A stretch of 39,784 bases of DNA, taken from assembly GCA_023132915.1 (NCBI GenBank), contig JAGLXM010000105.1, positions 1 to 39,784 of the forward strand, read 5' to 3'. Both the position numbers and the translations under genes were made by a program. Of this stretch, positions 1,347 to 34,563 are shown in pieces. Below the pieces are notes generated by a model, which was not told where the DNA came from, made no database searches, and saw only the letters and a list, made by a program, of their open reading frames with translations. How positions within the stretch are numbered: position 1 is the stretch's first letter; every line of letters begins with the position of its first letter. The stretch is from Candidatus Bipolaricaulota bacterium. Lineage in GTDB: Bacteria; Bipolaricaulota; Bipolaricaulia; UBA7950; UBA9294.

Positions 1347-1684
1347 GATGATGCCTATCCACTAGGTGTAAGTTTTTGGGCTTGACCACGGACTTTAAGA
1401 CCGTGTGTCAGTGGCTGGTGAAGCGTCGACTGTTGTACGGATTGACGGTCAGTCGGTACCATTGTGAGGTGGTCTTGGCCTGCGTTCCTGGTGCAGGAAA
1501 ACGAAACGTCGCATGATAGCCGTTTTCACAGCAGTGCCTCGATTTGACATCTGGATCTGGTGCCGATAAAGAGAGATTGGTTAGGGTGACCGACGTTTTG
1601 TCGGGCACAGTGTGCTTAATTCCCAACAGGACAAAAGCAGCAGATGTGAGTTAAGAAGAACGTGGAGTAAAAGGAGGAATGGAA

Positions 1685-4162
1685 ATGCGAAAGCTAATTC
1701 TTTTAGCGATGCTTCTGGCGGTGATTCCTGTTGCATCTGTCTTTGGATACACAGGACTGGCACCTGATGAAATTGTGTTCTTCGAAGAAGTGGATCAGGC
1801 CAAGGTGCTATCGATGATGGAGACCGGTCAGGCGCACCTGTATGGAAATGCGTTTACGGCGGATCTGTATCAGGATATCCAAGGCGCTGGACTGCCGGTC
1901 ACGTTCAGCTATGGGAGTTTCAACGAGATCCTGCTTAACCCGGCGGTCGACGAGAACGACGAACCGTTCTTCAATGACGGTCGGTTCAACCCGTTTGGAA
2001 TTCAGGATGTCCGTGAAGCGATGTACTGCCTGATTGACCGAAACTACATCATCGATGAGTTCCTGGTTGGTCTTGGTGTTGCTCGCTGGACGATGCTCGA
2101 CCCGAACTTCCCGCCGTACGCCTCGGCGATTGAGGCAACACGCGGCATCGAGCTGACGTACCAGCACGATGAGGCAAAGGCTAGCGCGCTGATCACGCAG
2201 GGCATGGAAGCGGCCGGCGCGGAGAAGGTCGATGGCAAGTGGATGTATAACGGTGAGCCGGCCACGATCATCGCTCTGATTCGTATCGAAGACGAGCGAC
2301 TGGAGATCGGTAACTACGTTGCCGACTTGCTCGAAGCGCAGGGCTTCACAGTGGATCGCATGGAGCGGAAGTCGTCGGAGCTGGCTCCGCTGTGGCTGCT
2401 TGATGACCCGGCCAACGGTGCGTGGAGCTACTACACCGGTGGTTGGATCTCCAACCTGATCGACCGCGACCAGGGAAGCGATTTCGACTTCATGTACACA
2501 CCACGCGGATGGACGGTTCCGCTGAACCAGGGCTTCCCGATTCACCTGTTCCCGGAACTGGATGCAGCGGCTGATGCCCTTGGTAAGCGTGACTACAACA
2601 CGGTTGCGGAGCGCGTCGACCTGCTGGGTCAGGCTGAAGAAGGTGCGGCCGAAGCCGCGTGGCGTCAGTGGATCTTCAGCTCCGCGTCGCCGTGGGCGAC
2701 CGCACCAGACGTTCGCGTAGGAGTGGATATCGCCGCTGGTGTTTCTGGCGCGTATATCTGGGCACATACGGCACGCTTCGTCGATGAAAACGGCGCACCA
2801 GTGGTTGGCGGGACGATACAGATGGCGTCCCCGAGCATGTTCACGCAGCCATGGAACCCGGTTGACGGGTCGAACTGGCTCTACGACGCGATGATCCAAC
2901 GCGCGACGGAAGACTGGTTCGGATTCCCGGATCCGTTCACCGGCCTCATCCAGCCACACCTCATCGACAGCGCCACGTGCACGGTGCTGGACACCATCCC
3001 AATGACGGCTACGCTCGACTACGTCACTGTGGAGAGGGTCTCCGAGATCGTTGTTCCCGCCGACGCTTGGGTCGACTGGAACGCGACGGATCAGGTGTTC
3101 ATCACCGCTGCAGAGAAGTTCCCGGACGGTCTAACTGCGAAGACGAAGACGGAAGTTGTCTTTGTCGACGACCTGTTTGAGAACCCGTGGCACGACGGAT
3201 CGACCCTGTCGCTCGAGGACATGCTGCTGCAGTTCATCATGACCTTCGACCGGGCCAAGGAAGACAGCGTGTACTACGACGAGGCCGAGGTTGACGTCTT
3301 CAACCAGTTCATCAGCGTCTTCAAGGGTGCGCGTGTCACATCGACCGCTCCGTTGACGATCGAGGTGTACCACGACTCGTTCTACCTTGACGCGTCGGTC
3401 CAGGCATGGAACCGCATTGGCGGGCTGTTCTGGCCTTACTACAGCCAGGGTATGTCCCCATGGCACACGATGGCCGTTGGTTTAAAGGCCGAAGGCGCGG
3501 AAACGACCGCGTTCTCTGAAGACAAGGCCGACAAGCTCGGCGTCGATCGCCAAAACTGGATCAGCGGTGAATCGTTTGTTCTGCTGCAAGACCAGCTCGC
3601 TATTGCAAGCGGCGAAGGGTTTATCCCGTACGAACCGACACTCGGCGCGTACATCACCGCGGATGAGGTGTCGACGCGCTACGCGAACCTGTCGAGCTTC
3701 ATCGAGGAGTATGGTCACATGTGGGTCGGCAACGGTCCAATGATGATCTCGGAAGTTAATCCTATGGCGAAGATCATCACCGGAAAACGGTTCGATGGAT
3801 ATCTTCACGAGATGGACAAGTTCCTCGTGTTCGCTGCACCGCGGTTTGCTGACATCAAAGTCAACGGACCGATGACGGCGACCAAAGACGTAGCACAGGT
3901 CCTTCAGGTTCTTCTAACAGAGGACGGCGAAGCGTACCCGGCCGAGGACATCGATACTGTTAAGTTCCTTGTTCTCGATGCAAACGGAGAAATCGCCTTT
4001 TCCGGCGAGGGCGACGTGATGTATGACGGCGAAGTTCACATTATACTTAGCCAAGAGGATCTGGCTGCGTTGCCCAGCGGTTCAACGACCGTTGAGATCA
4101 TTGCTGTACTGAAGCCGGTGGCTTGCCCGAGCATCGACTCGTTCTCGTTCGTACTTCAGTAG
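1685..4162 (+). CDS. ABC transporter solute-binding protein, SBP_bac_5 (family 5) type, apparently circularly permuted, with C-terminal beta domain
   Basis: Signal peptide MRKLILLAMLLAVIPVASVFG. C-lobe-like segment (DEIVFFEEVDQAKVLSMMETGQ...VREAMYCLIDRNYIIDEFL) precedes the N-lobe-like segment (GGTIQMASPS...SNWLYDAMIQRATEDWFGFPDPFTG...GNGPMMISEVNP). GGAGG RBS precedes ATG 1685. Confidence 0.85.
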   Translation: MRKLILLAMLLAVIPVASVFGYTGLAPDEIVFFEEVDQAKVLSMMETGQAHLYGNAFTADLYQDIQGAGLPVTFSYGSFNEILLNPAVDENDEPFFNDGRFNPFGIQDVREAMYCLIDRNYIIDEFLVGLGVARWTMLDPNFPPYASAIEATRGIELTYQHDEAKASALITQGMEAAGAEKVDGKWMYNGEPATIIALIRIEDERLEIGNYVADLLEAQGFTVDRMERKSSELAPLWLLDDPANGAWSYYTGGWISNLIDRDQGSDFDFMYTPRGWTVPLNQGFPIHLFPELDAAADALGKRDYNTVAERVDLLGQAEEGAAEAAWRQWIFSSASPWATAPDVRVGVDIAAGVSGAYIWAHTARFVDENGAPVVGGTIQMASPSMFTQPWNPVDGSNWLYDAMIQRATEDWFGFPDPFTGLIQPHLIDSATCTVLDTIPMTATLDYVTVERVSEIVVPADAWVDWNATDQVFITAAEKFPDGLTAKTKTEVVFVDDLFENPWHDGSTLSLEDMLLQFIMTFDRAKEDSVYYDEAEVDVFNQFISVFKGARVTSTAPLTIEVYHDSFYLDASVQAWNRIGGLFWPYYSQGMSPWHTMAVGLKAEGAETTAFSEDKADKLGVDRQNWISGESFVLLQDQLAIASGEGFIPYEPTLGAYITADEVSTRYANLSSFIEEYGHMWVGNGPMMISEVNPMAKIITGKRFDGYLHEMDKFLVFAAPRFADIKVNGPMTATKDVAQVLQVLLTEDGEAYPAEDIDTVKFLVLDANGEIAFSGEGDVMYDGEVHIILSQEDLAALPSGSTTVEIIAVLKPVACPSIDSFSFVLQ

Positions 4163-4246
4163 GGAACAGAGTGGGCCACGCTAGCACTGACGGCGTTGAA
4201 CGAGAAGCGCAGTAGTGCGAGTAGTAGATAGAACTGCAAAGGGTTT

Positions 4247-4287
4247 GGGGGTCGTGGAAGGCTGTTCTTTCTACGACCCCCACTTTT
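4247..4287 (+). terminator. Strong stem-loop between SBP and permease (candidate attenuator/partial terminator)
   Basis: GGGGGTCGT (4247-4255) pairs with ACGACCCCC (4273-4281), followed by ACTTTT. Confidence 0.6.
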
Positions 4288-4308
4288 CTATCGTCTGGAA
4301 GGTGCAAT

Positions 4309-5445
4309 ATGGCTCAAGAATCGAGGACACCTCCAAAAGCGGAGTCCGCCGCGGGGAAGTGGAGAGTGTTTTCTCCGGCTGCGCTCAGGTTCGCTCGCTA
4401 CACGCTGATTCGGGGGGTTGCCCTTGTTGTGACGGTCGCTATCGGCGTGTACATCGCTGTGTGGATCGCCAATATGGGGGGTCACGTTGATGAGATTCGC
4501 AAGGCGGAGATTCGCGAAGCCGTGGGAGTAAGCTTTCGTGGAAACCCGGCCTACCGCGACTTGACGCCGAGCGAGAAACGCAAGTTGATGGACGCGGAAA
4601 TCAAGCGTCAAGTCGAGCGTCTCGGCCTTGACAAACCATTTATTGGTCGGAGCTTCGCCTATCTTGCCAACGCGTTGACGTTGTCACTCGGACGTGCCGA
4701 ACGCATGTCCAGTGATACAGGATCGAAGCAGGTTCGCTCGATCATCCTCGAACGGCTTCCGGCGACGCTGATGCTATTCGGAACAGCACAGGTGCTTGTC
4801 TTCTTCGTCGGGCTGTTCATCGCGTTGTTCCTGTCTCGGCGATACGGCAGTTTTCTCGATCGCCTATCGGTCTCGCTAGCGCCGATGTCAGCGGCACCGC
4901 CGTGGTTCTACGGCATCTTCCTCATCCTTATCTTTGCCGCCATCGCCGGAATCTTGCCGTACGGAGGTATGCTCGATGCACCGACGCCGGAGACAACCTT
5001 CGGAACCGTACTCAATGTAGTCAAACACATGATCCTTCCGTTGATGGCGTGGCTGCTGAGCACCGTTGCGATCAGCGTGTACACGTGGCGAACCTTTTTT
5101 CTGATTCATTCGAGCGAAGACTACGTTGAGTTGGCCAAGGCAAAGGGGCTTCATTCGAACGCGATCGAACGGCGGTATATCCTTCGCCCTGCGCTGCCAA
5201 CCGTCATCACGCAGTTCGCGCTGACGATGATCTACGCGTGGCAGGGAGCGATTATCACGGAGACCGTTTTCAGTTGGCCCGGTTTGGGACGAATGCTATT
5301 CCAAGCGATCGGCATGTATGAAGTTCCGGTCATTATCGGCTCGGTTGTCATCTTTGCCTACCTGTTGGCCATCAGCGTGTTCTTGCTCGACATCCTCTAC
5401 GCGATGGTCGATCCACGCGTCAAACTCGGAGCGAAGCGGGCATGA
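4309..5445 (+). CDS. Peptide ABC transporter permease, DppB/OppB type
   Basis: Multiple TM segments; EDYVELAKAKGLHSNAIERRYILRPALPTVITQFAL...ETVFSWPGLGRMLFQAI motif of BPD_transp_1. Confidence 0.92.
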   Translation: MAQESRTPPKAESAAGKWRVFSPAALRFARYTLIRGVALVVTVAIGVYIAVWIANMGGHVDEIRKAEIREAVGVSFRGNPAYRDLTPSEKRKLMDAEIKRQVERLGLDKPFIGRSFAYLANALTLSLGRAERMSSDTGSKQVRSIILERLPATLMLFGTAQVLVFFVGLFIALFLSRRYGSFLDRLSVSLAPMSAAPPWFYGIFLILIFAAIAGILPYGGMLDAPTPETTFGTVLNVVKHMILPLMAWLLSTVAISVYTWRTFFLIHSSEDYVELAKAKGLHSNAIERRYILRPALPTVITQFALTMIYAWQGAIITETVFSWPGLGRMLFQAIGMYEVPVIIGSVVIFAYLLAISVFLLDILYAMVDPRVKLGAKRA

Positions 5446-6797
5446 TGCGGCTTTGGAGAGGAGTTTCAGACGCCATTCGCCGGTACCCAACGGTACTAGT
5501 GTGCGTTTCCATTATCACCGTGTTGATCGGCCTGTCGATCTACGCGGTGGTTTCTATCCCGTATTCAGAGGTTGTCGTGTTGTGGCGAGGAGCCGGTGAC
5601 ATATGGAGCGACACGCCACGATACGCTGCACCGGCATGGACGAATCTGTTTCGCAGTGAGAAGCTACCCGAGACGTTTAAGCTGTCTTCATCGGACCACA
5701 ACACCGTCACAGAGCAAACCGGAGACACATCTTGGAAAGCGACGACCACCTATACGTTCGAGTATGAATACACGCGGTTCCCTCAAGAGATGAACGTCTT
5801 CTTCGAGGCGCAATTCGAGAAACGGAGGCCGTTTGTCATTCTCACATGGACAACACCGGACGGCCGGGAGTACTCCATATTTCGAGATGCTCTCCGTCCG
5901 TCTCAGCGGTATGCCATCTCGCAAGATACCAAGTTGACCGACCAGTTCGACGGGGAATATCCGCATGTGGGGTTGCTCGCTGACCCGGATTCGATCGGGC
6001 AGTCCGGCGCCGAGCCGGAAGTACTTCCGGGTGAGTACGAGCTGCGCGTTGAAGTGCTGACGTTTGAGGAAGACTCGCATGTTGACAGCCGGTTCGTTGT
6101 CTATGGCAACGTCTACGGCATCGCTGGGACAGATCATCTACGTCGGGATCTTGCGATCGGCCTGTTGTGGGGGACACCCGTCGCGTTGCTGTTCGGGCTG
6201 CTGGCAACGATTGGTGCAAATATCACGACGTTTATCATCGCCGCAGTCAGCACGTGGTTCGGCGGCTTCGTGGATGCAGCGATTCAACGGGTTACAGAGG
6301 TCAACCTAATGTTGCCGTTCCTGCCAATCCTGATCATGGTTGGAACATTCTATAATCGAAGCATTTGGACGATGCTGATGGTGATCATCGTGCTCAGCAT
6401 CTTCAGCGCGTCGATCAAGACGTACCGCGCGATGTTCTTGCAGGTAAAGAGCTTGCCGTATATCGAAGCTGCACGTGCCTACGGGGCGAGCAATACGCGG
6501 ATCATCTTCCGGTACTTGATCCCCAAGATCGTACCGGTTCTAATCCCGAACTTCGTGATCGGCATCCCCACGTTCGTGTTCCTGGAGGCATCGCTGGCGG
6601 TGTTGGGCTTAGGCGATCCCATTCTTCCGACCTGGGGCAAGATGCTTAACGACGCATACCAAGGTGGTGCCTTGTACCGCGGTTACTACTACTGGGTACT
6701 TCAGCCAGCCGCCCTGCTTATGGTGACGGGCTTGTCGTTCGCGATGCTCGGATTCGCCCTGGACCGCGTTTTCAATCCACGACTGAGGGGAACCTGA
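5442..6797 (+). CDS. Peptide ABC transporter permease, DppC/OppC type, with large extracytoplasmic insertion
   Basis: SLPYIEAARAYGASNTRIIFRYLIPKIVPVLIPNFV...EASLAVLGLGDPILPTWGKML is DppC-like. About 160 non-TM residues between TM1 and the core. ATG overlaps the upstream stop. Confidence 0.9.
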   Translation: MMRLWRGVSDAIRRYPTVLVCVSIITVLIGLSIYAVVSIPYSEVVVLWRGAGDIWSDTPRYAAPAWTNLFRSEKLPETFKLSSSDHNTVTEQTGDTSWKATTTYTFEYEYTRFPQEMNVFFEAQFEKRRPFVILTWTTPDGREYSIFRDALRPSQRYAISQDTKLTDQFDGEYPHVGLLADPDSIGQSGAEPEVLPGEYELRVEVLTFEEDSHVDSRFVVYGNVYGIAGTDHLRRDLAIGLLWGTPVALLFGLLATIGANITTFIIAAVSTWFGGFVDAAIQRVTEVNLMLPFLPILIMVGTFYNRSIWTMLMVIIVLSIFSASIKTYRAMFLQVKSLPYIEAARAYGASNTRIIFRYLIPKIVPVLIPNFVIGIPTFVFLEASLAVLGLGDPILPTWGKMLNDAYQGGALYRGYYYWVLQPAALLMVTGLSFAMLGFALDRVFNPRLRGT

Positions 6798-6799
6798 TC

Positions 6800-7759
6800 G
6801 TGGTGGACAAACTACTGCAGGTGAAGGATCTATCGCTGTATTTCAAGACAACTAAAGGCGTCGTCCAAGCGGTCGACGGTGTCGCTCTCGACATGGACTC
6901 TGGAGAAGCTTTAGCCATCATCGGGGAGTCCGGATGCGGGAAGACGTCGCTCATTCGAGCGATTCTCCGCCTCCTGCCGAATAACGTCCACACGTACAAA
7001 GGAAGCGTCGTTCTGCTTGGTACCGACATCATGAAGCTACCCGAAGAGCGCTTCCGTACTCAGGTCCGTTGGCGACAAATCTCGCTGGTGGCTCAGGCAG
7101 CGATGAACGCTTTAAATCCTGTCGTTCGTGTTGGTGACCAGGTGTCGGAGCCCCTCGTAATTCACCAGAGGCTGGGCAAGAAGGCAGCACTTGTACAAGC
7201 TGCCGAGGTGTTCCGCATGGTCGGCGTTCCCACGGATTTCTTGAGCCGCTACGCGTTCGAGCTCTCCGGCGGCATGCGACAGCGAGCCATATTGGCGATG
7301 GCACTCATTAGTGAGCCCAACCTAGTGGTGTTGGACGAACCTACCTCAGCGCTGGACATGCTTACCCAGGCAAACATCATGAACGTTCTTAAAGGCATCA
7401 AACGAGATCTTGGTCAAAGCTTCATCTTCATCACCCACGATGTTGCCACTACAAGCGAACTCTCGGACCGCGGCGTTGTGATGTACGCTGGACAGATCGT
7501 CGAGATCTCTAGTACTGCTGAGCAATTCTACCTTAACCCGCTCCATCCGTATTCACAGAAGCTGATGGCAAGTGTTCCTACGCTGAAGCAGAAGAAGGAA
7601 CTCGAGTTCATTCCTGGACAACCTCCCAGCCTGATCGGCCCTCCCACCGGCTGCCGATTCGCGGAGCGATGCCATCGTCGGTTCGATCTGTGTGACCAAG
7701 AACCGCCTATGTTCTCGTTGGAGGACGGGCGACAGGTCAAGTGCTGGCTCTACAAGTGA
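6800..7759 (+). CDS. Peptide ABC transporter ATP-binding protein, DppD/OppD type
   Basis: Walker A GESGCGKTS, signature LSGGMRQRAILA, Walker B LVVLDEPTSALD, C-terminal oligo_HPY Cys motif GCRFAERCHRRFDLC. Confidence 0.93.
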   Translation: MVDKLLQVKDLSLYFKTTKGVVQAVDGVALDMDSGEALAIIGESGCGKTSLIRAILRLLPNNVHTYKGSVVLLGTDIMKLPEERFRTQVRWRQISLVAQAAMNALNPVVRVGDQVSEPLVIHQRLGKKAALVQAAEVFRMVGVPTDFLSRYAFELSGGMRQRAILAMALISEPNLVVLDEPTSALDMLTQANIMNVLKGIKRDLGQSFIFITHDVATTSELSDRGVVMYAGQIVEISSTAEQFYLNPLHPYSQKLMASVPTLKQKKELEFIPGQPPSLIGPPTGCRFAERCHRRFDLCDQEPPMFSLEDGRQVKCWLYK

Positions 7760-7767
7760 AGGATATG

Positions 7768-8784
7768 ATGCTCATGGAAACACAGCAACCGGAGACAACA
7801 AGCCAGAGGTTGTTGGAAGTCAACGACCTCCATCAGTGGTTCGAGTTGCGCAAGTTCGTGTTCGCTCATGCCGGCTACGTGAAGGCGGTGGATGGCGTCT
7901 CTTTCTCCTTGCCACGCGGCGAAGCGCTTGCCCTCGTGGGGGAAAGCGGATCGGGGAAGACCACGCTGGCGCGTACCGTGCTCGGTCTGCACAAACCTAC
8001 GTCCGGAGACGTGATCTTCGAAGGCCTGCGTCTGAATGACCTTTCGAGGAAGCAGATGCGCAGGTACCGTGCCAATCTCGGCTATGTACAGCAGGATCCT
8101 TACGGCGCATTGCCTCCGTTCATGTCGCTGCGCAACATCCTTGCCGAGCCGATGAAGATTAACGGCATTCGAGACAAGAAGGAACAGGATCGTCGCATTC
8201 GCGTCGTGCTTGAAGAAGTCAAGCTGACACCGGTCTCCGATTTTATCAATAAGTTCCCGCACATGCTCAGTGGTGGACAGCAGCAACGCGCCGTCATCGC
8301 TCGCGCGATGGTGCTCAATCCGAAGCTCATCGCGGCTGACGAGCCAGTGTCGATGCTCGATGCGTCCGTTCGGGTCGAGATCCTCAAGCTCCTCAGACGC
8401 ATCCAGGAAGAGCATAATCTTGCTGTGATCTACATTACACACGATCTGTCTACGGTGCGGTACTTCGCCGAGCGGATCTTCATCATGTATGCGGGTAAGA
8501 CGGTTGAGAAGGCGCCGGTGGAGTCTCTTATCGAGAACCACTTCCATCCTTACACGCAGGCATTGCTCGCTGCGATTCCAGATCCCGATCCGGAGAATGC
8601 CAAGAAATTCCGCGACATTCCCGCGGGAGAACCACCTAGCCTGGTCAATCCTCCCACAGGCTGTCGATTCCACCCCCGGTGCTCAAGGGTTATCAAAGGC
8701 CTGTGCAATGTGAAGGAACCACCGGAGTTCGAGCCCGCGCCGGAACACTACGTGAAGTGCTGGCTCTACCGCAAGGAAGAATGA
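7768..8784 (+). CDS. Peptide ABC transporter ATP-binding protein, DppF/OppF type
   Basis: Walker A GESGSGKTTLAR, LSGGQQQRAVIARAM, AADEPVSMLD, GCRFHPRCSRVIKGLC. Start ambiguous (7741/7765/7768/7774). Confidence 0.92.
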   Translation: MLMETQQPETTSQRLLEVNDLHQWFELRKFVFAHAGYVKAVDGVSFSLPRGEALALVGESGSGKTTLARTVLGLHKPTSGDVIFEGLRLNDLSRKQMRRYRANLGYVQQDPYGALPPFMSLRNILAEPMKINGIRDKKEQDRRIRVVLEEVKLTPVSDFINKFPHMLSGGQQQRAVIARAMVLNPKLIAADEPVSMLDASVRVEILKLLRRIQEEHNLAVIYITHDLSTVRYFAERIFIMYAGKTVEKAPVESLIENHFHPYTQALLAAIPDPDPENAKKFRDIPAGEPPSLVNPPTGCRFHPRCSRVIKGLCNVKEPPEFEPAPEHYVKCWLYRKEE

Positions 8785-13833: not shown

Positions 13834-13879
13834 CGCGGGCGACCCGTTCTCTGCTCTGGGCCGCGAGGGATATGTGTCA

Positions 13880-13963
13880 CTTCCCTACGCTGGCATTACC
13901 CAGATCAGGTTCGAAGGGTCGAGGTTAAACCTCCTCTCAGCCCAATTGCTTGAGCTCCCCTGA
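13880..13963 (-). promoter_or_regulatory. TPP riboswitch (THI element)
   Basis: Reverse complement TCAGGGGAGCTC...GGGCTGAGAGGAGGTTTAACCTCGACCCTTCGAACCTGATCTGGGTAATGCCAGCGTAGGGAAG contains the conserved CTGAGA, ACCCTT, GAACCTGATCTGGGTAATGCCAGCG elements. Confidence 0.97.
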
Positions 13964-13970
13964 TGAGATT

Positions 13971-13999
13971 ACTATACTCCTGTCGCAGATTTGGATCAA
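13971..13999 (-). promoter_or_regulatory. Promoter for thiL-thiBPQ
   Basis: On minus strand TTGATC (13999-13994), 17-bp spacer, TATAGT (13976-13971), immediately upstream of the riboswitch. Confidence 0.65.
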
Positions 14000-21088: not shown

Positions 21089-21125
21089 TACACACGTTGT
21101 TTCACGTTGTTTGGAGGTGAAAGGT

Positions 21126-22700
21126 ATGAAGCGCGGTGCAGTGTTTTGTCTAGTTGGTTTGCTTGTGTTAGGCGTTGGTTTGATTGGCTGGGCCGGAGGA
21201 AGCCTTCGAGTCACCTTTGCCTGGCCTACATACGCTGATCCGGCGGTGGGTTCAGACTATTCGAGTTCTTCCACTCTAGTCAACCTCTATGACTCGCTCG
21301 TCTACCCGGTCCTGGGTGGTTACGTGACAGCTAACCTGGCCCAAGTCTGGGAAGTATCGGGCGACGGGTTGACCCGGACATTCTACCTGAGGTCGGGGGT
21401 CAAGTTCCACGACGGCACCGAATTCACCGCTGAGGATGTCAAGTTCAGCATGGATCGGTTGCAGACTATCGGTGAGGGATATGCCTACTTGTTCGATGCG
21501 GTAGAGAGCACCGAAGTCGTCGATGGCTATACGGTTAGGTTCCATATGTCTCGACAAAGTGGGCCGTTCCTTACCAACATCGTCAGGCTCTATGTTCTAA
21601 ACAAGGACCTCGTGATGGCGAATCTCGAGGATGGTCCTTACGGGGACTTCGGCGACTACGGTAAGAAGTACCTCCTGACCCATGACGCTGGCTCCGGGGC
21701 CTATACGATAAAGGAGTTTCCCCTGGAGGAGTACGTGCTCATGGAGAAGTTCCCCGATTACTGGGGGATGGTCGATCCCGATGCTCCTGATCTGGTCAAG
21801 TTCATCGCCACTACGGAACCCATGACCGTCAGAACGATGCTGGCCAATAAGGAGCTTGAGATCTCCGACCAGTGGCAGACGTCGGAAAGCTTGGCGGCGC
21901 TCGATGCGATGGAAGGAGTGGATATCGCGAAGTTCTATATGGGTGGTGTTTTCTTCTACATGATCCACAACAAAAAGCCTCCCACTGACGATATCCACTT
22001 CCGCAAGGCCATGGCGTGGGCGTTTGACTACGAGACCGCGGCTGCGCTGGATCTGAGCCATCCGGCGCATGGACCAGTTGCCGTTGACTACCCTGGATGG
22101 AATCCGGATGTATTTACCTATCATCAAGATCTGGACAAAGCCATGGAAGAGTTGCGGCAATCGAAGTACTATGACCAGCTTGACGATTATCCGGTCGATC
22201 TACACTGGTGTTCCTTAGTACCTACGGAAGAGAAGCCAGCACTCCTGTTTCAGGCGAACATGGCCGAGATCGGGATCAAGGTGAACGTCATCAGAACCCC
22301 ATGGATGACGATGATCGATGAAATGGCGGACATGGAGAAAAGTCCGCACATCGAGACGATCTACGTCTCTCCTCACTGGCCTGAGGCTGGTTCGATGCTG
22401 GAGTCGCGGTATCTCTCAAGTTCCGCTGCAACATGGGAGCAAAACGAATGGCTGCTCGATCCGTACTACGATGAGGCTGTTGCGGATGCTTTAGCAACCG
22501 TCAATATGGAAGAAAGGTTTGCGAAATACCACGACCTTCAGGATTACATTGTGGACCTCTGCCCCTCAATTTTCGTGAACGATCAACTGGAGAGACATGC
22601 CTACCAGAGCTATGTTGACTGGCCGGCAGCCAGGGGTCTGGTCATTAAAATAATGGGATACAACATGGACGCGCGCTTCATCAAGGTACTGCCACACTAG
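21126..22700 (+). CDS. ABC transporter solute-binding protein, family 5 (SBP_bac_5), canonical order
   Basis: Signal peptide; NLAQVWEVSGDGLTRTFYLRSGVKFHDGTEFTAEDVKFSMDR...HFRKAMAWAFDYETAAALDLSHPAHGPV. Confidence 0.93.
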   Translation: MKRGAVFCLVGLLVLGVGLIGWAGGSLRVTFAWPTYADPAVGSDYSSSSTLVNLYDSLVYPVLGGYVTANLAQVWEVSGDGLTRTFYLRSGVKFHDGTEFTAEDVKFSMDRLQTIGEGYAYLFDAVESTEVVDGYTVRFHMSRQSGPFLTNIVRLYVLNKDLVMANLEDGPYGDFGDYGKKYLLTHDAGSGAYTIKEFPLEEYVLMEKFPDYWGMVDPDAPDLVKFIATTEPMTVRTMLANKELEISDQWQTSESLAALDAMEGVDIAKFYMGGVFFYMIHNKKPPTDDIHFRKAMAWAFDYETAAALDLSHPAHGPVAVDYPGWNPDVFTYHQDLDKAMEELRQSKYYDQLDDYPVDLHWCSLVPTEEKPALLFQANMAEIGIKVNVIRTPWMTMIDEMADMEKSPHIETIYVSPHWPEAGSMLESRYLSSSAATWEQNEWLLDPYYDEAVADALATVNMEERFAKYHDLQDYIVDLCPSIFVNDQLERHAYQSYVDWPAARGLVIKIMGYNMDARFIKVLPH

Positions 22701-25710: not shown

Positions 25711-26672
25711 CACCAGTGACAGAAGAGATACTAACCGTTAAAGATTTGAAGAAGTACTTTCTCACCAGCCGCGGCACGGTGAGAGCCGTCGATGGGATCA
25801 GTTTCTCTATTAAAGAGGCAGAGACGTTAGGATTGGTCGGGGAATCGGGTTCAGGGAAGAGCACGGTGGCCTATACCATCATGGGAATGTACCGCCCCAC
25901 TGCAGGAGAGATTTGCTTTCGGGGGCAGGATATCAGCAGAGAGGCCCGCAAGCGTTCGAAGGCTTTGAAGAAACAGATCCAAATCGTCTTTCAGGACCCG
26001 GGCTCCTCGCTCAACCCTCGAAGAAGCATCAAGCAGATCCTGGAGCTGCCCTTAAAAGTCCACGGACTCTCTAAAGATAGGTCGGGAACACAACAGGTGG
26101 AGAGGCTTCTAGAGATGGTCGAGCTGCCGCTTGATTATATGTATAAATACACGGAAGCGATCGGCGGTGGGGAGAAGCAGATGGTGGCGATCGCCCGGGC
26201 CCTGGCCACCGATCCCTCTTTCGTGGTCTTAGATGAGCCGACCTCGGCGTTGGACGTTTCGGTGCAGGCCAAGATCATCAATCTGCTGCTGAACTTGCAG
26301 CGGGAGCTTCACCTCACCTACCTCTTCATCACGCATGATTTGAGTCTGATGCGGAATGTGTCAACCAGGGTGGCAATCATGTATTTGGGCAAGATCTGTG
26401 AGGTGGCTTCTGCAGCAGAGTTCTTCCAGAACCCAATTCATCCCTATACTCGAATGCTACTTTCCTCGATCCCGGTTGTGTCTGAAGAGGAAGAGGCGTT
26501 CAAGCCGAAGAAGGTCCTCTCTCGGGGCGAGATCCCCAGTCCGGTGAACGTTCCTCCTGGGTGCAGCTTCCATCTGCGCTGCTCTGTGAAAAAGGACATC
26601 TGCTCCACAGACGATCCGGTAATGGTGGAAATCGGTGAGGGGCACACCGTCCGATGCCATTCCTCCCCCTAG
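25707..26672 (+). CDS. Peptide ABC transporter ATP-binding protein, DppF type
   Basis: GESGSGKSTVAYTIMG, IGGGEKQMVAIARAL, VVLDEPTSALDVS, GCSFHLRCSVKKDIC. Confidence 0.93.
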   Translation: MTPVTEEILTVKDLKKYFLTSRGTVRAVDGISFSIKEAETLGLVGESGSGKSTVAYTIMGMYRPTAGEICFRGQDISREARKRSKALKKQIQIVFQDPGSSLNPRRSIKQILELPLKVHGLSKDRSGTQQVERLLEMVELPLDYMYKYTEAIGGGEKQMVAIARALATDPSFVVLDEPTSALDVSVQAKIINLLLNLQRELHLTYLFITHDLSLMRNVSTRVAIMYLGKICEVASAAEFFQNPIHPYTRMLLSSIPVVSEEEEAFKPKKVLSRGEIPSPVNVPPGCSFHLRCSVKKDICSTDDPVMVEIGEGHTVRCHSSP

Positions 26673-26722
26673 TGAGTGGAACCGCACGCGAGGACGGGCA
26701 AATACCCCATGAGGAGGCAGGT

Positions 26723-27499
26723 ATGACCAACCGTATCCTGTTTATCAATCCTTTCAAAGGAGAGATCTTCGATCAGCCCATCAGAGCGTTCATTGAAAAG
26801 GAAAAGAGAGCTGATACCGAGGTTGAGGTGGTCTCTTTGGAAAGAGGGCCAGAGCATTTGGAATACCATTACTATGAAGCATTGACCCTCGTAGATACCC
26901 TTAAGAAGATCGAGCAAGCCGAGAAAGAGGGATATGACGCCGCCGTCATCGGCTGTTTCTATGATCCCGGTTTGAGGGAAGCCCGCGAGATCACAAACAG
27001 CTTGGTGGTCACCGCGCCTGCAGAGGCCTCGATGCACATTGCAACAACGTTAGGTCATAAATTCTCCATCATCGTTGGTCGAGAGAAGTGGATCCCAAAG
27101 ATGTATGAGAACGTAGTGAATTACGGATTTAAAGATAGACTTGCCTCATTTAAGTCTGTTGGCTTAGGGGTGCACGATTTTCACAAGGATGAGGCAGAGA
27201 CTGCCAAGCGCTTGAAGGATGCGGCCAAAGAGGCGGTCAAGCAGGATCTTGCAGAAGTCGTTATCCTCGGTTGTACGATCCAGTTTGGGTTCTACAAAGA
27301 ACTCCAAGGATACATTGGTGTCCCGGTCATCGATGCCATCCTCGCGGCGTTTAAGTATGCGGAATTTCTCATTGAACTGCGGAAGAGGTTTAACTGGGGA
27401 CACAGCAAGGTCTATGGCTACGAAAGCCCTCCTCAAGATGAGATTCTTGGCTGGAAACTTGAGGAGCAATACGCAAGACAGGCCACGCAGGAGCAATGA
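26723..27499 (+). CDS. Asp/Glu/hydantoin racemase superfamily protein, copy 1
   Basis: MTNRILFINPFKGEIFDQPIRAFIEKE...DAAVIGCFYDPGLREAREITNSLVVTAPAEASMHIA...EVVILGCTIQFGFYKELQGYIGVPVIDAILAA; two conserved Cys in racemase positions. Confidence 0.8.
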   Translation: MTNRILFINPFKGEIFDQPIRAFIEKEKRADTEVEVVSLERGPEHLEYHYYEALTLVDTLKKIEQAEKEGYDAAVIGCFYDPGLREAREITNSLVVTAPAEASMHIATTLGHKFSIIVGREKWIPKMYENVVNYGFKDRLASFKSVGLGVHDFHKDEAETAKRLKDAAKEAVKQDLAEVVILGCTIQFGFYKELQGYIGVPVIDAILAAFKYAEFLIELRKRFNWGHSKVYGYESPPQDEILGWKLEEQYARQATQEQ

Positions 27500-27500
27500 T

Positions 27501-28274
27501 ATGCCAAACCGCATCTTGTGGATTAATCCGATCGGCTCAGCTGATTTCGATCCGCCAATGCAGGCGTTCCTTGAGACAGGCAAGCAGTCTGACACAGAGA
27601 TCAACGTCGTTTCTTTGAAGCGAGGGCCGTTGCATCTTGAGTACCACTACTATGGGGCATTGATTCTTGCCGATACGCTTCATCGGGTCAGACAAGCGGA
27701 GAATGAGGGCTATGAGGCGGTTGTGATCGGTTGCTTTTATGATCCTGGCCTGCGGGAAGCAAGGGAAATCACCGATAGGCTTGTTGTTACGGCACCGGCG
27801 GAATCCTGCCTCCACATCGCGGCAAGCCTGGGCCATCGCTTCTCGATCATCGTTGGGAGGAAGAAGTGGATCCCCAAGATGCGCGAGAATGTGGTCAACT
27901 ACGGCTTTGAAGATCGTCTCGCCTCATTCAAATCAGTCGATTTAGGGGTCTATGATTTTCAAAAAGACCCCGCTGAGACAGCAAGAAGGCTGAAAGCAGC
28001 TGCTAGAGAGGCTGTAGAGCAGGACTTGGCTGAGGTCATCATCTTAGGCTGCACAGCACAATTCGGTTTCTATAAGGAACTGCAAGAGGAACTGGGGGTC
28101 CCGGTGATCGATGCGATCCTCGCACCGTTGAAATACGCTGAATTCCTGATTGAGCTGAAGAAGCGGTTTAACTGGTCACAGAGCAAGCGGTACGGCTACG
28201 AGAGCCCACCCCAAGAGGAGATCAAACAGTGGAAGCTTGAGGAGCAGTACGGCACCTCGGGGCTTTGGGGGTAG
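27501..28274 (+). CDS. Asp/Glu/hydantoin racemase superfamily protein, copy 2
   Basis: MPNRILWINPIGSADFDPPMQAFLE...VVIGCFYDPGLREAREITDRLVVTAPAESCLHIAASLG...VIILGCTAQFGFYKELQEELGVPVIDAILAP; tandem paralog. Confidence 0.8.
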   Translation: MPNRILWINPIGSADFDPPMQAFLETGKQSDTEINVVSLKRGPLHLEYHYYGALILADTLHRVRQAENEGYEAVVIGCFYDPGLREAREITDRLVVTAPAESCLHIAASLGHRFSIIVGRKKWIPKMRENVVNYGFEDRLASFKSVDLGVYDFQKDPAETARRLKAAAREAVEQDLAEVIILGCTAQFGFYKELQEELGVPVIDAILAPLKYAEFLIELKKRFNWSQSKRYGYESPPQEEIKQWKLEEQYGTSGLWG

Positions 28275-28285
28275 GAAGGAGAAAG

Positions 28286-29884
28286 ATGACCGGAGAGTTA
28301 CGCGTTGGATTTGATGTTGGTGGTACCTTCACCGATGGTGTGCTCATGCGGGGGAGGGATGTGGTGGTCAAGGCCAAGTCCCTCACCACGCAGGACGTAA
28401 CCGCAGGGATCGTACAGGCATTGGATGCACTATTGAACAAATCTCGAGTGAATCCTGCTGAGGTGGCGATGGTCTCACTCGGCACAACGCATACGACAAA
28501 TGCCCTCATTGAGCGACGAAACCTGAATAAGGTGGGAATCTTTCGCCTTGGGGCTCCTGCCACCACCGCGATCCCGCCCCTCACCGGTTGGCCGGAGGAC
28601 CTTAAGCAGGCGATCAGTGGAACTGAGCTGGTACATGTGATTCGTGGTGGGTCTGAGTACGATGGACGAGATATCGTTCCGTTGGATAAACAAGCGATCG
28701 CTGAGGCGTGTCGTAACATGAAGGGGAAGGTAGACTCGGTGGCGATCACCGGGGTCTTCTCCCCTATCATTTCTGATCACGAAGAACAAGCGGCCGAGAT
28801 TGTGCGAGAGGTCCTCGGGGATGACATCCACATTACCCTCTCCCACCGCATCGCGACTATCTCGCTCCTTGAGCGGGAGAACTCAGCCATTTTGAACGCC
28901 TCGGTGATCACCGTGATGCAGCGGGCGGTCAACTCGTTGAAGACGGCGGTGAGTGAGAGAGGGATCACAGCGCCACTGTTCATCGTGCAGAACGACGGAA
29001 GCGTTATGTCCGTCGATTATGCCGTAGATTACCCCATCTTTACCGTTGCTTCGGGACCCGCGGCCAGTGTCCGGGGGTCGGTGTACCTCTCCGGGATCGA
29101 GGATGGTGTGGTAGTCGACATCGGTGGAACCTCCACCGACGTGGCCTACATTGTGAAGGGGTTCCCTCGCGAGTCGTCGATCACGGTGACAATCGGCGGG
29201 GTCAAGACGAACATCCGCTGCCCTGACCTCCTCTCGATCGCCTTGGGCGGCGGAACGATCGTCAAACACCAAGGAGAAGAGGTGAGTGCCCTTGGTCCTG
29301 AGAGTGTGGGGTACAACCTCGTCCGGCTTGGCAAGTCCTTTGGTGGGCCACTGCTCACAGTGCACGACACTGCAGTGGCTTTAGGCAAGCTCGATCGTAA
29401 GCTTGAGGTGTTTAAGACCGACTTTGTCACCCATCCGGAGAAGGTAAGTGCCTTGTCCAAGCGTTTGATAGAAAACGCTTGGGCAGTGATCAAGGCTGCG
29501 TTAGAAGAGGTCATCGACAAGATGAAGACTACTGTCGAGCCGGTACCAGCGATCTTTATCGGCGGCGGCGCGATGGTTGTTCCCAAGGAAGGGATCGCCG
29601 GCGTGAGCAAGGTGCTGTGTCCCGACCACTTCGAGGTGGGTGGGGCGGTCGGCACGACCATCGCCGAGATCGGGGCGTACGCCGAAGGTGTGGTCGATTT
29701 GGAAAAAGAAGATCGGGATAACGCTATCGCGCGGGTTACGGAACAGGCAAAAAACAACGCAAAGACAGCAGGAGCCATCCGGGAGACCGTGGAGGTCATC
29801 GACGTGGAAGAGATCCCGTTCACGTATATGCCGGGAAAACGCGAGAAGGTACGTATACGCGTGAAGGGGAAGATCCTCCGATGA
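28286..29884 (+). CDS. Hydantoinase/oxoprolinase A (HyuA) family protein, short form
   Basis: RVGFDVGGTFTDGVLMRGRDV...VSLGTTHTTNALIERRNLNKVG...VVDIGGTSTDVAYI...GGAVGTTIAEIGA; ASKHA phosphate motifs; 532 aa from ATG 28286. Confidence 0.88.
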   Translation: MTGELRVGFDVGGTFTDGVLMRGRDVVVKAKSLTTQDVTAGIVQALDALLNKSRVNPAEVAMVSLGTTHTTNALIERRNLNKVGIFRLGAPATTAIPPLTGWPEDLKQAISGTELVHVIRGGSEYDGRDIVPLDKQAIAEACRNMKGKVDSVAITGVFSPIISDHEEQAAEIVREVLGDDIHITLSHRIATISLLERENSAILNASVITVMQRAVNSLKTAVSERGITAPLFIVQNDGSVMSVDYAVDYPIFTVASGPAASVRGSVYLSGIEDGVVVDIGGTSTDVAYIVKGFPRESSITVTIGGVKTNIRCPDLLSIALGGGTIVKHQGEEVSALGPESVGYNLVRLGKSFGGPLLTVHDTAVALGKLDRKLEVFKTDFVTHPEKVSALSKRLIENAWAVIKAALEEVIDKMKTTVEPVPAIFIGGGAMVVPKEGIAGVSKVLCPDHFEVGGAVGTTIAEIGAYAEGVVDLEKEDRDNAIARVTEQAKNNAKTAGAIRETVEVIDVEEIPFTYMPGKREKVRIRVKGKILR

Positions 29885-31050
29885 AGGAAAAGAGAGTGAG
29901 CGCACGCGATATCCTGCAGGAATGGGATATCAAGGACTTTCGCGTCATCGACAAACAGGCGATCAGTGAGATCACGCTGGGGGCTTCGATCCTTGCCACC
30001 GGTGGCGGTGGAGACCCAGAGATTGGGCTTCTGTGGACGTACAAGGTGCTCGATGAAGGCAAGGAAATCCTCATGGTGGACCCGATGGAGATCCCTGATG
30101 AAATCCAGACAGCCAGTACAGCCTGCTTGGGAGCCGCACTTGTGCTGACAGAAAAGCCTCCAAGTGGAGGCGTACTTAACCTAGCGATACGTCGTCTTGA
30201 GCAGTACCTGGGGCGGCCGATCCAGGCGACTATCCCCATCGAGTGTGGGGGGGTTAACTCGCCGGTGGCGTATGCCGCAGCCGGAGAGCTCGGCGTTCCA
30301 GTGATAGACGTCGATGGGATGAACCGCGCCTTTCCCGAGCTACAGATGACGTCGTGGGTTACCCACGGGGTGCACTCGTCCCCGACTGTTTCAGTAGACA
30401 ACCGGAAGAACATCACCGTGATCGACACTGGCGATGACGACGTGCTGGCAGAGACCCTTGCCCGTCGAGTGGCGATGGCCTACGGCGGCATTTCCTGGAT
30501 TGCCACCTACCCGTTGACCGGGCGCCAGGTGAAGGAAGCCTCGATCCTCAATTCTCAAAGCATTGCCTGGGCCGCCGGTCATGCGGTGATGTGCGCTCGA
30601 CAAGAGCATCTCGATCCGATCGCGGAACTGTTGAAAAGCCTCAAAAAAGAGCGCGATGTGGAGGGTTTCCGGGTGTTCCGCGGTAAGATCGTAGATATAC
30701 GTCGGGAGTTCGGTTCTGAGACCAATAAGGGATTTACGTTAGGGCAAGTGATCATGGAAGGGATAGACGAGTATAAGGGACAAACCGCTTCCCTCGACTT
30801 CCAAAATGAGTGGCTCAACCTGCGTGTTGACGGGGAGGTACTCTGTCTGCCGCCGGACCTCATCGCGATCCTGGATTCAGAGACAGGAGAACCGATTCGC
30901 ACGGACATCATGAAGTATGGCTACCGAGGGACGATCGTCCTTATCCCGGCGCATGAGCGGATGCGAACCCCCAAGGGGATCGAGATGTTCGGCCCGCGAC
31001 ACTTCGGCTACGACCTGGACTACGTTCCGGTCGAGACACTGAACGGATGA
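29881..31050 (+). CDS. DUF917 family protein, copy 1
   Basis: ITLGASILATGGGGDPEIGLLWTYKVLDEGKEILMVDP...GGVNSPVAYAAAGELGVPVIDVDGMNRAFPELQMTS...YGGISWIATYPLTGRQVKEASI; overlaps the HyuA stop. Confidence 0.85.
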   Translation: MKEKRVSARDILQEWDIKDFRVIDKQAISEITLGASILATGGGGDPEIGLLWTYKVLDEGKEILMVDPMEIPDEIQTASTACLGAALVLTEKPPSGGVLNLAIRRLEQYLGRPIQATIPIECGGVNSPVAYAAAGELGVPVIDVDGMNRAFPELQMTSWVTHGVHSSPTVSVDNRKNITVIDTGDDDVLAETLARRVAMAYGGISWIATYPLTGRQVKEASILNSQSIAWAAGHAVMCARQEHLDPIAELLKSLKKERDVEGFRVFRGKIVDIRREFGSETNKGFTLGQVIMEGIDEYKGQTASLDFQNEWLNLRVDGEVLCLPPDLIAILDSETGEPIRTDIMKYGYRGTIVLIPAHERMRTPKGIEMFGPRHFGYDLDYVPVETLNG

Positions 31051-31060
31051 GGAGGTGCTG

Positions 31061-31336
31061 ATGAGCGTAGATTTAAAAGCCTTGGTTGAATCCGATCCAC
31101 GCATTGGCAGTGTGCTTAGAACTATCATTGAAACTGCCTATATCGAACGGCAGCGGCTGGAAGAGGTGGTGAACATTCCCCACGGGGAGATGGAATCATT
31201 GCTTTCGATCCTTTCCGAGAAGATGGTGGTCCTGGAACTTGCTAGTCAGGCCGATTCCAGTGTGGAATCCCGCGTTCCCAAGAAAGTGTACCTGATCAAT
31301 CCCGAGCTGGAACAGGCAGTTCGCGAGCTCATCTAG
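31061..31336 (+). CDS. Small protein, possible winged-helix fold, unknown function
   Basis: MSVDLKALVESDPRIGSVLRTIIETAYIERQRLEEVVNIPHGEMESLLSILSEKMVVLELASQADSSVESRVPKKVYLINPELEQAVRELI; GGAGGTG RBS before ATG 31061. Confidence 0.6.
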   Translation: MSVDLKALVESDPRIGSVLRTIIETAYIERQRLEEVVNIPHGEMESLLSILSEKMVVLELASQADSSVESRVPKKVYLINPELEQAVRELI

Positions 31337-31339
31337 GGA

Positions 31340-32428
31340 ATGGACTGCGTAACCCGGGTAGATGCCTTCGCGGCGAAGATGGGGAAGTATGACCTTGACC
31401 TTGCTCTTCTGTTTGACCGCGACAACATCAGATATTTCACCGGCTTTCGCTTAAACCGGGTTGTTAGCTCAATCCTGGCGGTATCGCGCAATGGGAATAC
31501 TACCTACATAGTTGCTCAATTAGACCTCAAGCGAGCGAAGCGGGACTGTTGGATTGAGCATGTGATCCCCTTTCCCGAGGATACGCCGAACTATCTCGCG
31601 TCCCTTGCTCCTTTGTTACGTGGGTCTCCAAGGCGAATCGGGGTGGAGAAGGACACTCTGACCCTTGCTCAGATGGAGTACATGATGGAGATAGCTGGGG
31701 CGGGCGTTGAGTTCGTGGATGTGCGAGGGCTCACTGCGCAGTTGCGGATCATCAAATCCGATGAGGAGATCGCTTGCATCCGCCGTGCCGCTGACGTGGC
31801 CAGTCGAGTGATGGATAAGGTGCGGCAAGAGATCCGCCCCGGCGTTCGCGAGGCAGAACTTGCCTCCTGGACAGGCTATCTTATGGGAAAAGAGGGTGCG
31901 GAGGGACCCTCTTTTGAGCCGTTCATGATGTCCGGGGAGAACGCGTGGCTTCCACAGCGGGTAGCCTCGCAGAAGGCCCTAAAGGATGGGGAGCTCGTTC
32001 TCCTGGACATGGGGGCGGTCTGTGACGGGTACTGTTCAGACATCACGCGCACCTTCGCGGTGGGAGAGGTTTCGCAGGAACAGAAGAGGGTCTTTCAGGT
32101 TGCGTGGAAGGCTCAGCAGGCTGCGATTGAAGCTATCCGACCCGGCGTACACGCCTTTGAGGTTGACGCTGCAGCGCGTGAGATTGTGGAAGCCGAAGGC
32201 CTAGCTGCTTACTTCCCTCACCTTACCGGGCATGGCGTGGGGGTCTCTGTACACGAAGCGCCCATCTTGGATAAAGGGGTGGATACGGTGCTTCAACCTG
32301 GGATGGTCGTCACTGTGGAACCCGGAGTGTACCTCCCCAGGGTGGGAGCAGCTCGTGTTGAGGACATGGTGCTTGTGACTACCAGTGGCTGCGAACTGTT
32401 GACGAGTGCGGCGCGTGACCTAGTGTAA
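31340..32428 (+). CDS. M24 family metallopeptidase (Xaa-Pro aminopeptidase/prolidase-like)
   Basis: LRIIKSDEEIACIRRAADVAS...LVLLDMGAVCDGYCSDITRTFAVG...HLTGHGVGVSVHEAPIL...LQPGMVVTVEPGVYLP...VEDMVLVT. Confidence 0.93.
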   Translation: MDCVTRVDAFAAKMGKYDLDLALLFDRDNIRYFTGFRLNRVVSSILAVSRNGNTTYIVAQLDLKRAKRDCWIEHVIPFPEDTPNYLASLAPLLRGSPRRIGVEKDTLTLAQMEYMMEIAGAGVEFVDVRGLTAQLRIIKSDEEIACIRRAADVASRVMDKVRQEIRPGVREAELASWTGYLMGKEGAEGPSFEPFMMSGENAWLPQRVASQKALKDGELVLLDMGAVCDGYCSDITRTFAVGEVSQEQKRVFQVAWKAQQAAIEAIRPGVHAFEVDAAAREIVEAEGLAAYFPHLTGHGVGVSVHEAPILDKGVDTVLQPGMVVTVEPGVYLPRVGAARVEDMVLVTTSGCELLTSAARDLV

Positions 32429-32437
32429 AAGGAGTGA

Positions 32438-33586
32438 GTGTTGAGTGTAAGAGAGATCCTGTCCGAATGGGGAGTCGGCGACTTCCGGGTGATCAATAAG
32501 CAGGCGCTTTCGGAGATTACTTTGGGTGCGTCGATCCTGGCCACGGGGGGCGGAGGGGATCCTGAGATCGGTCTGTTGTGGGCGTATAACGTGGTCGATC
32601 AGGGGAAGGAGATACTCCTTGTCGACCCCGAAGCGATGCCAGATGAGGCACTGGCGACGATCGCCGGTTGCCTTGGGGCGGCACTTGTCCTTACTGAGAA
32701 GCCTCCAAACGGGCAGGAGCTGTTCTGGTGTTACGATAAGCTGCGACGGTACATGGGGAAGCCGATCCAGGCGGTGATCCCTCCCGAGGCTGGTGGCGTG
32801 AATACCCCGGTTCCAATGGCGGTTGCCGGCGCAGTCGGGGTTCCTGTTATCGACGCCGATGGCATGGGACGCGCCTTCCCGGAACTTCAGATGACATCGT
32901 TTTATATCCATGGCGTCTCGCCGTCCCCCACGGCGGCGGCCGACGAAAAAGGGCATGTCACCATCTGTGATGCCAACGACGCTTTACTCACTGAACATAT
33001 CATCCGTGGTGCGGCGATGGCATACGGCGGTATCTCGTGGATTGCGGGGTATCCGATGACCGGGCGCCAACTCAAGGATACGGCGATCCTTAGATCCATC
33101 TCCATGGCGTGGGAACTGGGTGAGCGTGTGTTCAGCGCGCGGCGTAAACACCTTGACCCCATCGCTGAGGTGCTCAATCTCACCGGAGGGTATCGTGCCT
33201 TCCAGGGGAAGATCGTCGACATCAATCGAGAGTTCGGAGCGGAGAAGACCAAAGGATTCTCTTTGGGTGAGATCTTGATCGAAGGGATCGACACCTTCAA
33301 GGGACATAACGCTAAGATTGGCTTTCAGAATGAGTGGTTGACTCTGGAGGTGGACGGTGCAGTGCGTTGTATGCCTCCTGACCTGATTTGCATCCTTGAT
33401 CCGGCTACTGGGGAGCCGATCCGTACAGACATCGTCCGTTACGGCTACCGCGGAACAGTGGTTCTTATCCCCGCGCACGAACGGATGCGTACAGAGAAAG
33501 GGATCCAGACCTTTGGTCCCCGCTACTTTGGATACACCCACGACTATGTACCCGTGGAGAAATTGATGGAGGGGAAGGAAGGTTGA
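32438..33586 (+). CDS. DUF917 family protein, copy 2
   Basis: ITLGASILATGGGGDPEIGLLWAYNVVDQGKEILLVDP...GGVNTPVPMAVAGAVGVPVIDADGMGRAFPELQMTS; close paralog of 29881-31050. Confidence 0.85.
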   Translation: MLSVREILSEWGVGDFRVINKQALSEITLGASILATGGGGDPEIGLLWAYNVVDQGKEILLVDPEAMPDEALATIAGCLGAALVLTEKPPNGQELFWCYDKLRRYMGKPIQAVIPPEAGGVNTPVPMAVAGAVGVPVIDADGMGRAFPELQMTSFYIHGVSPSPTAAADEKGHVTICDANDALLTEHIIRGAAMAYGGISWIAGYPMTGRQLKDTAILRSISMAWELGERVFSARRKHLDPIAEVLNLTGGYRAFQGKIVDINREFGAEKTKGFSLGEILIEGIDTFKGHNAKIGFQNEWLTLEVDGAVRCMPPDLICILDPATGEPIRTDIVRYGYRGTVVLIPAHERMRTEKGIQTFGPRYFGYTHDYVPVEKLMEGKEG

Positions 33587-34563
33587 AGGTTCGTCGCTTG
33601 GTGCAGGTCGTGGATACCCACACCGCCGGTGAACCAACGCGTGTTGTCATCGGCGGTCTTCCTTCAATTCCCGGCCTGACAATGGAGGAGCGACGTACAT
33701 GGCTTACGGCTCACGCCGATGACCTGCGTCGGTTTCTCCTTAAGGAACCGCGGGGCCACCTCGACATGTTCGGGGCGATCGTTACACCACCGGCCGATCT
33801 CACTGCGGACTTCGGCTTAATCTTTCTCGATGGCGAAGGGTACTTGAGGATGTGCGGCCATGGCACGATCGGAGCGGTGACAGCCCTGGCATCGCTTGGC
33901 CAGATCAACAAGGAGACAGTGCTCCTCGACACACCTTCAGGCCTTGTGACCTGTCACCTCCGTTGGGAGGAGGGTGAGGTGTGCGCCGTCACCGTTGAGA
34001 ATGTTCCCTCCTTTTCCCTTAGGACCCTTGAGTGGAAGGGGGTACCCCTTCACGTGGCCTACGGAGGGAACCTTTTTGTGTTAGTCGAGGCAAGCTCCCT
34101 AAACATCAAGCTGAGGCGGCGCAATCTGCCCGAGATTGTAGACCTTGGGATGACGATTCGGCGTTGGAGTAATCAACATCATTCCTTCCAGCATCCGGCC
34201 ACCGGAGTTCCTCTGACAGTTGATCTTGTGGAGTTCTACGAGGAGGGTGCTCCTCCAAGGAACGTAGTCGTCTTTGGAGGTGGCCAGGTGGATCGCTCAC
34301 CCTGTGGAACAGGGACGTGCGCTAAGATGGCGTTGCTTTATGCTAAAGGCAAGCTGAGCGTAGGGGAAGATTATCGCTACCAAAGCATCTTAAATACGGA
34401 GTTTGTTGGACGGATCATCGCCGAGACCAAGGTGGGAGATACGCCCGGGATCCTTCCCGAGGTGACGGGATCCGCATACGTAATGGGGATTGGCTCCCTA
34501 ATGCTCACAGACGGTGATCCGTTTCCGACCGGATTTGATCTGGTGCGACGGGATATCGAATAG
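33583..34563 (+). CDS. Proline racemase / hydroxyproline epimerase family protein
   Basis: VDTHTAGEPTRVV...RMCGHGTIGAVTAL (first catalytic Cys) and DRSPCGTGTCAKMALL (second catalytic Cys). TTG start overlapping the upstream stop. Confidence 0.9.
   Translation: MKVRRLVQVVDTHTAGEPTRVVIGGLPSIPGLTMEERRTWLTAHADDLRRFLLKEPRGHLDMFGAIVTPPADLTADFGLIFLDGEGYLRMCGHGTIGAVTALASLGQINKETVLLDTPSGLVTCHLRWEEGEVCAVTVENVPSFSLRTLEWKGVPLHVAYGGNLFVLVEASSLNIKLRRRNLPEIVDLGMTIRRWSNQHHSFQHPATGVPLTVDLVEFYEEGAPPRNVVVFGGGQVDRSPCGTGTCAKMALLYAKGKLSVGEDYRYQSILNTEFVGRIIAETKVGDTPGILPEVTGSAYVMGIGSLMLTDGDPFPTGFDLVRRDIE

Follow-up and report, generated by a model that had tools for sequence, protein, structure and literature searches.

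Binding-protein gene and its operon

The window analysed here is a stretch of 39,784 nucleotides from a Candidatus Bipolaricaulota bacterium. At 1679-4162 on the plus strand it carries an intact open reading frame of 827 aa encoding a permuted SBP_bac_5 (OppA-like) binding protein, an assignment drawn from the reading frame itself, Pfam, a profile match to the structure 7fi3 and a predicted model. The preferred start is the ATG at 1685, 7 nt past a GGAGG (1673-1677); residue numbers given here are counted from 1679. An N-terminal signal peptide devoid of a lipobox (1685-1747, residues ~3-23) was recognised from sequence, hydropathy and a family-wide regular expression, the export signal being a hydrophobic N-terminus in the hydropathy plot. 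It is followed by half B (1760-2767, residues 28-363), which corresponds to the canonical C-terminal half of OppA (7fi3 chain 320-717), and by a linker between the old C-terminus and the old N-terminus (2768-2794, residues 364-372), delimited by the gap between profile matches and by the best rotation starts (366-376). Half A (2795-3802, residues 373-708) is equivalent to the canonical N-terminal half (chain 3-309). The motif positions listed in the initial annotation were recovered in the translation: DEIVFFEEVDQAKVLSMMETGQ from residue 30, VREAMYCLIDR at ~111-121, GGTIQMASPS from ~377 and GNGPMMISEV...DGYLHEMDKF, which ends at ~718. The beta-rich C-terminal domain noticed there is also real (3836-4159, residues ~720-827; model secondary structure and domain HMM counts), though 20 out of 88 homologous frames lacked it in the HMM counts and it is therefore an optional addition.

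Directly downstream, and on the same strand, lie genes for an OppB-type permease (4309-5445; PF00528), an OppC-type permease of 451 aa (5442-6797; PF00528, hydropathy), an OppD-type ATPase with Walker motifs and LSGG (6800-7759) and an OppF-type ATPase identified by its sequence features (7741-8784). Region 1679-8784 consequently encodes a binding protein together with two permeases and two ATPases, as in OppABCDF and DppABCDF transporters. This order was conserved: of the 23 loci read, 21 had the permuted gene immediately 5' of oppB (the exceptions being one contig end and one orphan), and oppC, oppD and oppF came next wherever the sequence reached far enough. Two loci from the Chloroflexota search (L132:6332-11232 and L133:76-5697) carry the gene for the permuted protein in tandem ahead of a single oppBCDF set. 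For another permuted protein (locus L131, G074:C13, frame 5854-8733), no opp genes were detected in the 16 kb read, and it is possibly an orphan sharing a transporter.

OppC displayed an extracytoplasmic domain of ~185 aa between TM1 and TM2 (about 5586-6146, plus strand; hydropathy and alignment of 20 loci), which was kept in all 20 aligned OppC proteins from operons with a permuted binding protein. Pfam gave no match on the N-terminal 253 aa of OppC. At 295 aa, the window's second OppC-like permease is too short to contain such a domain, as are its counterparts in three other organisms (308-369 aa).

Elsewhere in the window, a TPP riboswitch (80 bits, 13865-13971, minus strand) precedes a minus-strand operon for an AIR-synthase-like (ThiL-type) protein, an SBP_bac_6 binding protein, a fused permease and an ATPase, which probably serves thiamine uptake. 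A cluster at 26654-34563, comprising two Asp/Glu racemase-like proteins, hydantoinase A, two S-Me-THD-like proteins, an M24 peptidase and a proline racemase, adjoins another binding-protein and permease operon, beginning at 21111, and looks like a set for peptide or hydantoin catabolism.

Reversed order of the two halves

SBP_bac_5 (PF00496) was the sole Pfam family matched by the window protein (59.6 bits against a curated cut-off of 32.4) and was detected in 27 of 28 family members at E<=0.01. In the native protein this match covered residues 30-267 on profile positions 149-357 of 368 only, and no single in-order SBP_bac_5 domain spanning the protein was found by Pfam. A phmmer search against all PDB chains retrieved one entry, the archaeal OppA 7fi3, in two out-of-order stretches. 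With a family profile built from an alignment of 28 members, query 373-708 matched chain 3-309 (i-E 6.9e-41) and query 28-309 matched chain 320-619 (i-E 5.5e-61), while a weak third stretch (query 309-363, chain 662-717) was in register with the latter. Read along 7fi3, the permuted family is thus ordered [373-708][28-363], with the cut in loop 309-320, and the two halves join at complementary sites, 309/320 and about 717/3.

Rotation of the sequence back to the canonical order extended Pfam coverage to 61-357 (70.4 bits) and allowed alignment to 7fi3 as one stretch (chain 29-570). The same operation on a canonical control split its Pfam match and lowered it from 206 to 190 bits. When each rotation was globally aligned to 7fi3, the window protein scored best (380.5) with residue 366 as start; its native order (-93.5) scored no better than shuffled sequences (-105 +/- 25). 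Together with the out-of-order profile matches, this marks the reversed order as more than chance. All 81 distinct homologues scanned preferred a rotation, with a median of 0.51 of their length.

As a canonical control, the initial annotation had proposed the window's second binding protein (21111-22700), which served well as such: it matched Pfam profile 3-336 as one unbroken stretch and scored best unrotated. SBP_bac_5 matches numbered 17 in the window's own genome, of which ten were near-whole-profile and in canonical order; the window's second binding protein spanned 3-336, the window gene was the exception (profile 149-357 in an 835-aa frame) and the remainder were partial frames. One further candidate of this genome, contig G000:C299, whose 867-aa frame gave a partial match, was rejected as a permutation. 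Its 852-aa ORF (L142:911-3469, minus strand) is a fusion of Peptidase_C13 (27-209) with an N-terminal SBP_bac_5 part (618-809), and its C-terminus looks truncated or frameshifted.

An AlphaFold2 model of the full chain, built with the 28-member family alignment, was confident (pLDDT 91.7, pTM 0.88), consistent with a permuted chain that would be able to fold. Its best Foldseek match was again 7fi3 (402 columns, TM 0.42), followed by cluster C binding proteins; a partial alignment is what a sequential aligner would be expected to give on a permuted chain. By this model the protein would belong to the cluster C fold, the full chain aligning in part. Half A modelled alone (pLDDT 91.4) had 7fi3 as its sole significant match (E 4.4e-16, TM 0.68), and therefore the half missed by Pfam is OppA as well.

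The window protein is confirmed here as an SBP_bac_5 (cluster C, OppA-like) fold with its halves in reversed order. The initial annotation had read it as a circular permutation at one linker, to be recognised by two out-of-order profile matches; both matches were found against 7fi3, they fuse into one in-order match upon rotation, the rotation scan agrees, and residues 364-372 form the single linker between halves with complementary joins.

Distribution and origin of permuted families

Collinear homologues, 35-43% identical, were found across the phylum of the window and in Chloroflexota, where the isolate Anaerolinea thermolimosa IMO-1 has one. Of 100 genomes from the window's phylum, 62 contained the family by profile search, two of them single-contig (G036 and G038); in Chloroflexota, to which A. 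thermolimosa belongs, the figure was 29 out of 301 genomes. When each half was scored with its own model, B came before A in all 88 distinct frames and the reverse in none, 7fi3 itself being A-B; the survey of homologues that had been suggested at the outset thus yielded no canonical member. A search with the canonical 7fi3 sequence gave 46 pairs of matches in 44 genomes, and in all 46 B preceded A; over the 100 and 301 genomes this query detected no canonical close homologue, only the permuted ones and a few weak generic SBP matches. A plasmid collection gave a single weak match to the window protein and no relatives of 7fi3. Export features (signal peptides, lipobox or TM) were present throughout: most Chloroflexota members displayed a lipobox followed by a linker of 20-54 residues, most members from the window's phylum a plain signal, and nine members additionally a C-terminal transmembrane segment.

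The window stems from a fragmented metagenome-assembled genome (354 contigs, 7% contamination), which could raise suspicion of an assembly or binning artefact, or of a decayed gene. The same order was nevertheless encountered in the isolate A. thermolimosa, in both single-contig genomes and in 88 distinct frames. A dN/dS of 0.16 between the window gene and a relative 95% identical indicates that the gene is under purifying selection and speaks against decay. This explanation has virtually no probability left, and an assembly error fusing two binding-protein genes is likewise excluded, given the isolate, the two single-contig genomes and several dozen assemblies made independently.

A genuine fusion, in which B came from one binding-protein gene or fragment and A from another, has a parallel in the literature, as the authors who described MglB-2 of Treponema pallidum weighed an origin of its permuted part from another gene (PMC4990184). 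Here, both halves were nearest to 7fi3 by sequence profile, half A alone was significant by fold to 7fi3 only, the rotated protein aligned as one 7fi3 stretch (chain 29-570) and the halves met at the complementary sites. A fusion of two different genes is accordingly very improbable. Since both halves share archaeal OppA as closest structure, and match this one homologue in swapped order with complementary joins, permutation of a single ancestor is favoured over a fusion of two genes. The further SBP_bac_5 proteins used for comparison, among them archaeal OppA, are canonical, so the permuted order is regarded as derived; as all members are collinear, a single event is indicated. The best explanation is therefore that an ancestor of archaeal OppA type underwent circular permutation once, long ago.

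Compared with 7fi3, the chain is cut in a loop of ~10 residues that immediately precedes the DEIVF strand, a short linker joins the old termini, and the new B-A order is inherited through two phyla. The permutation probably proceeded via tandem gene duplication followed by loss of the outer halves. No duplication intermediates (A-B-A or B-A-B) were present among unique frames, and a single B-A-A-C frame was rejected as intermediate, its alignment being split by an insertion. A quick tree with rotated 7fi3 as its root, which contained several long branches and was used only for the interleaving of phyla, showed the two phyla interleaved, with about six changes between them; this makes horizontal transfer likely.

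A second permuted SBP_bac_5 family came to light when genes beside similar OppC sequences on plasmids were tested. Its representative, WP_238532955.1 from Halalkalicoccus jeotgali (549 aa; plasmid NC_014299.1, NC_014299.1:101992-103641, L139:3900-5549), is permuted differently. Residues 217-542 correspond to AppA 28-349 and residues 47-181 to AppA 365-496; a five-member profile gave 216-546 for AppA 22-348 (2e-56) and 41-202 for AppA 356-512 (8e-15). Pfam displayed two stretches in each of the five members, of which the main one ends at profile ~285 near the C-terminus, and the second family is therefore cut at ~285, not at ~149. Plasmid records with >=80% coverage of WP_238532955.1 numbered 41, and complete plasmids carrying the family were found in Haladaptatus, Nitratireductor, Ketogulonicigenium and Neorhizobium. 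Additional loci were L147, L148, L149 and L150, the hosts being haloarchaea and alphaproteobacteria. In the loci read, the gene precedes two permease genes, and its products are annotated as 'ABC transporter substrate-binding protein' only.

Both families share the cluster C fold, a permuted chain and a position directly 5' of two permease genes. They differ in their cut (AppA 348/356, Pfam ~285, against Pfam ~149 in the window family), and the second is of ordinary size (532-577 aa) with AppA/DppA-type kin. As the two cuts differ, the cluster C fold was permuted at least twice, at different loops.

Proposed function and relation to known systems

Among known proteins, archaeal OppA of Thermococcus kodakarensis (7fi3, chain of 732 aa) is the closest: its halves are homologous over almost their full length and it shares the expected role of peptide binder, but it is ordered A-B while the window family is ordered B-A, often with the additional C-terminal beta domain. 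Cluster C proteins in general (OppA, DppA, AppA, NikA) share PF00496 and the leading Foldseek matches with the window protein and are distinguished from it by the permuted chain, cut near profile position 149. Another natural circular permutation of an ABC importer's binding protein is that of TpMglB-2 (Tp0684) from T. pallidum, for which the designation 'Type Ic / Cluster Bc' was proposed (PMC4990184). It differs in having a cluster B glucose-binding fold and in its cut site, organisms and ancestry; Pfam and Foldseek placed the window protein in cluster C and not with a cluster B fold having a permuted N-lobe. No report of a permuted cluster C binding protein was found in the literature searched.

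The product of 1679-4162 is in all likelihood a working binding protein of an OppABCDF-type peptide importer with a circularly permuted chain. In the known DppABCDF cycle, the binding protein closes on its peptide and binds the permeases, and a scoop motif of DppB enters the cleft (PMC12136057); from this cycle we infer that the permuted protein would act likewise. Fold, cleft and Venus-flytrap closure would be kept, because each half keeps its partner surfaces. The secreted protein would bind peptide between its lobes and hand it to OppB/OppC, import being presumably driven by OppD/OppF.

Both the peptide ligand and its import are predicted from homology. SBP_bac_5 proteins also bind nickel complexes, opines and sugars, and their relatives in the PDB include nickel, opine and EDTA binders, so that a protein of OppA type by fold might carry a ligand other than peptide (e.g. 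a sugar, an opine or a metal complex). The nearest solved relative is however a peptide-bound archaeal OppA, 7fi3 having been solved with an endogenous pentapeptide according to its entry title, and the operon is of oppBCDF composition with two ATPases. A non-peptide ligand is on these grounds rather unlikely, though it deserves to be kept in mind, and peptide is preferred here.

What the permutation itself brings about is a separate matter. It would relocate the membrane tether or the free N-terminus, free the old end of domain I and shift the point at which the chain exits the fold, and hence the tether geometry; the extracytoplasmic domain of OppC would be a likely docking partner of the binding protein. 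The order may instead be devoid of functional meaning, the outcome of one neutral rearrangement passed on by descent. This is suggested by the variety of tethering in the family (lipobox, cleaved signal or C-terminal TM), as no single tether geometry explains the conservation. Against it, the strict conservation of order together with the OppC extracytoplasmic domain, and the location of the second permuted family beside permease genes as well, are at most compatible with a role. On balance neutrality appears a little better than an even bet. A wider reading combines two or more natural permutations of the cluster C fold, at different loops, with co-evolution of the new chain ends in the window's family and the OppC domain; the result would be a class of importers whose tether and docking geometry was remodelled to suit a permuted binding protein. 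It is advanced here as a tentative and, taken as a whole, rather doubtful proposal.

The literature has few natural circular permutations among large binding proteins of several domains; one clear precedent was found, a cluster B sugar binder. Permuted members are easily overlooked: they are labelled as plain substrate-binding proteins or as partial Pfam matches, and sequential fold comparison aligns them only in part. The cut sites they tolerate would be useful for building biosensors from binding proteins. With two families cut differently, nature offers a way to test where in the OppA fold a loop can accept new termini, and also whether the position of the tether matters for docking on OppBC.
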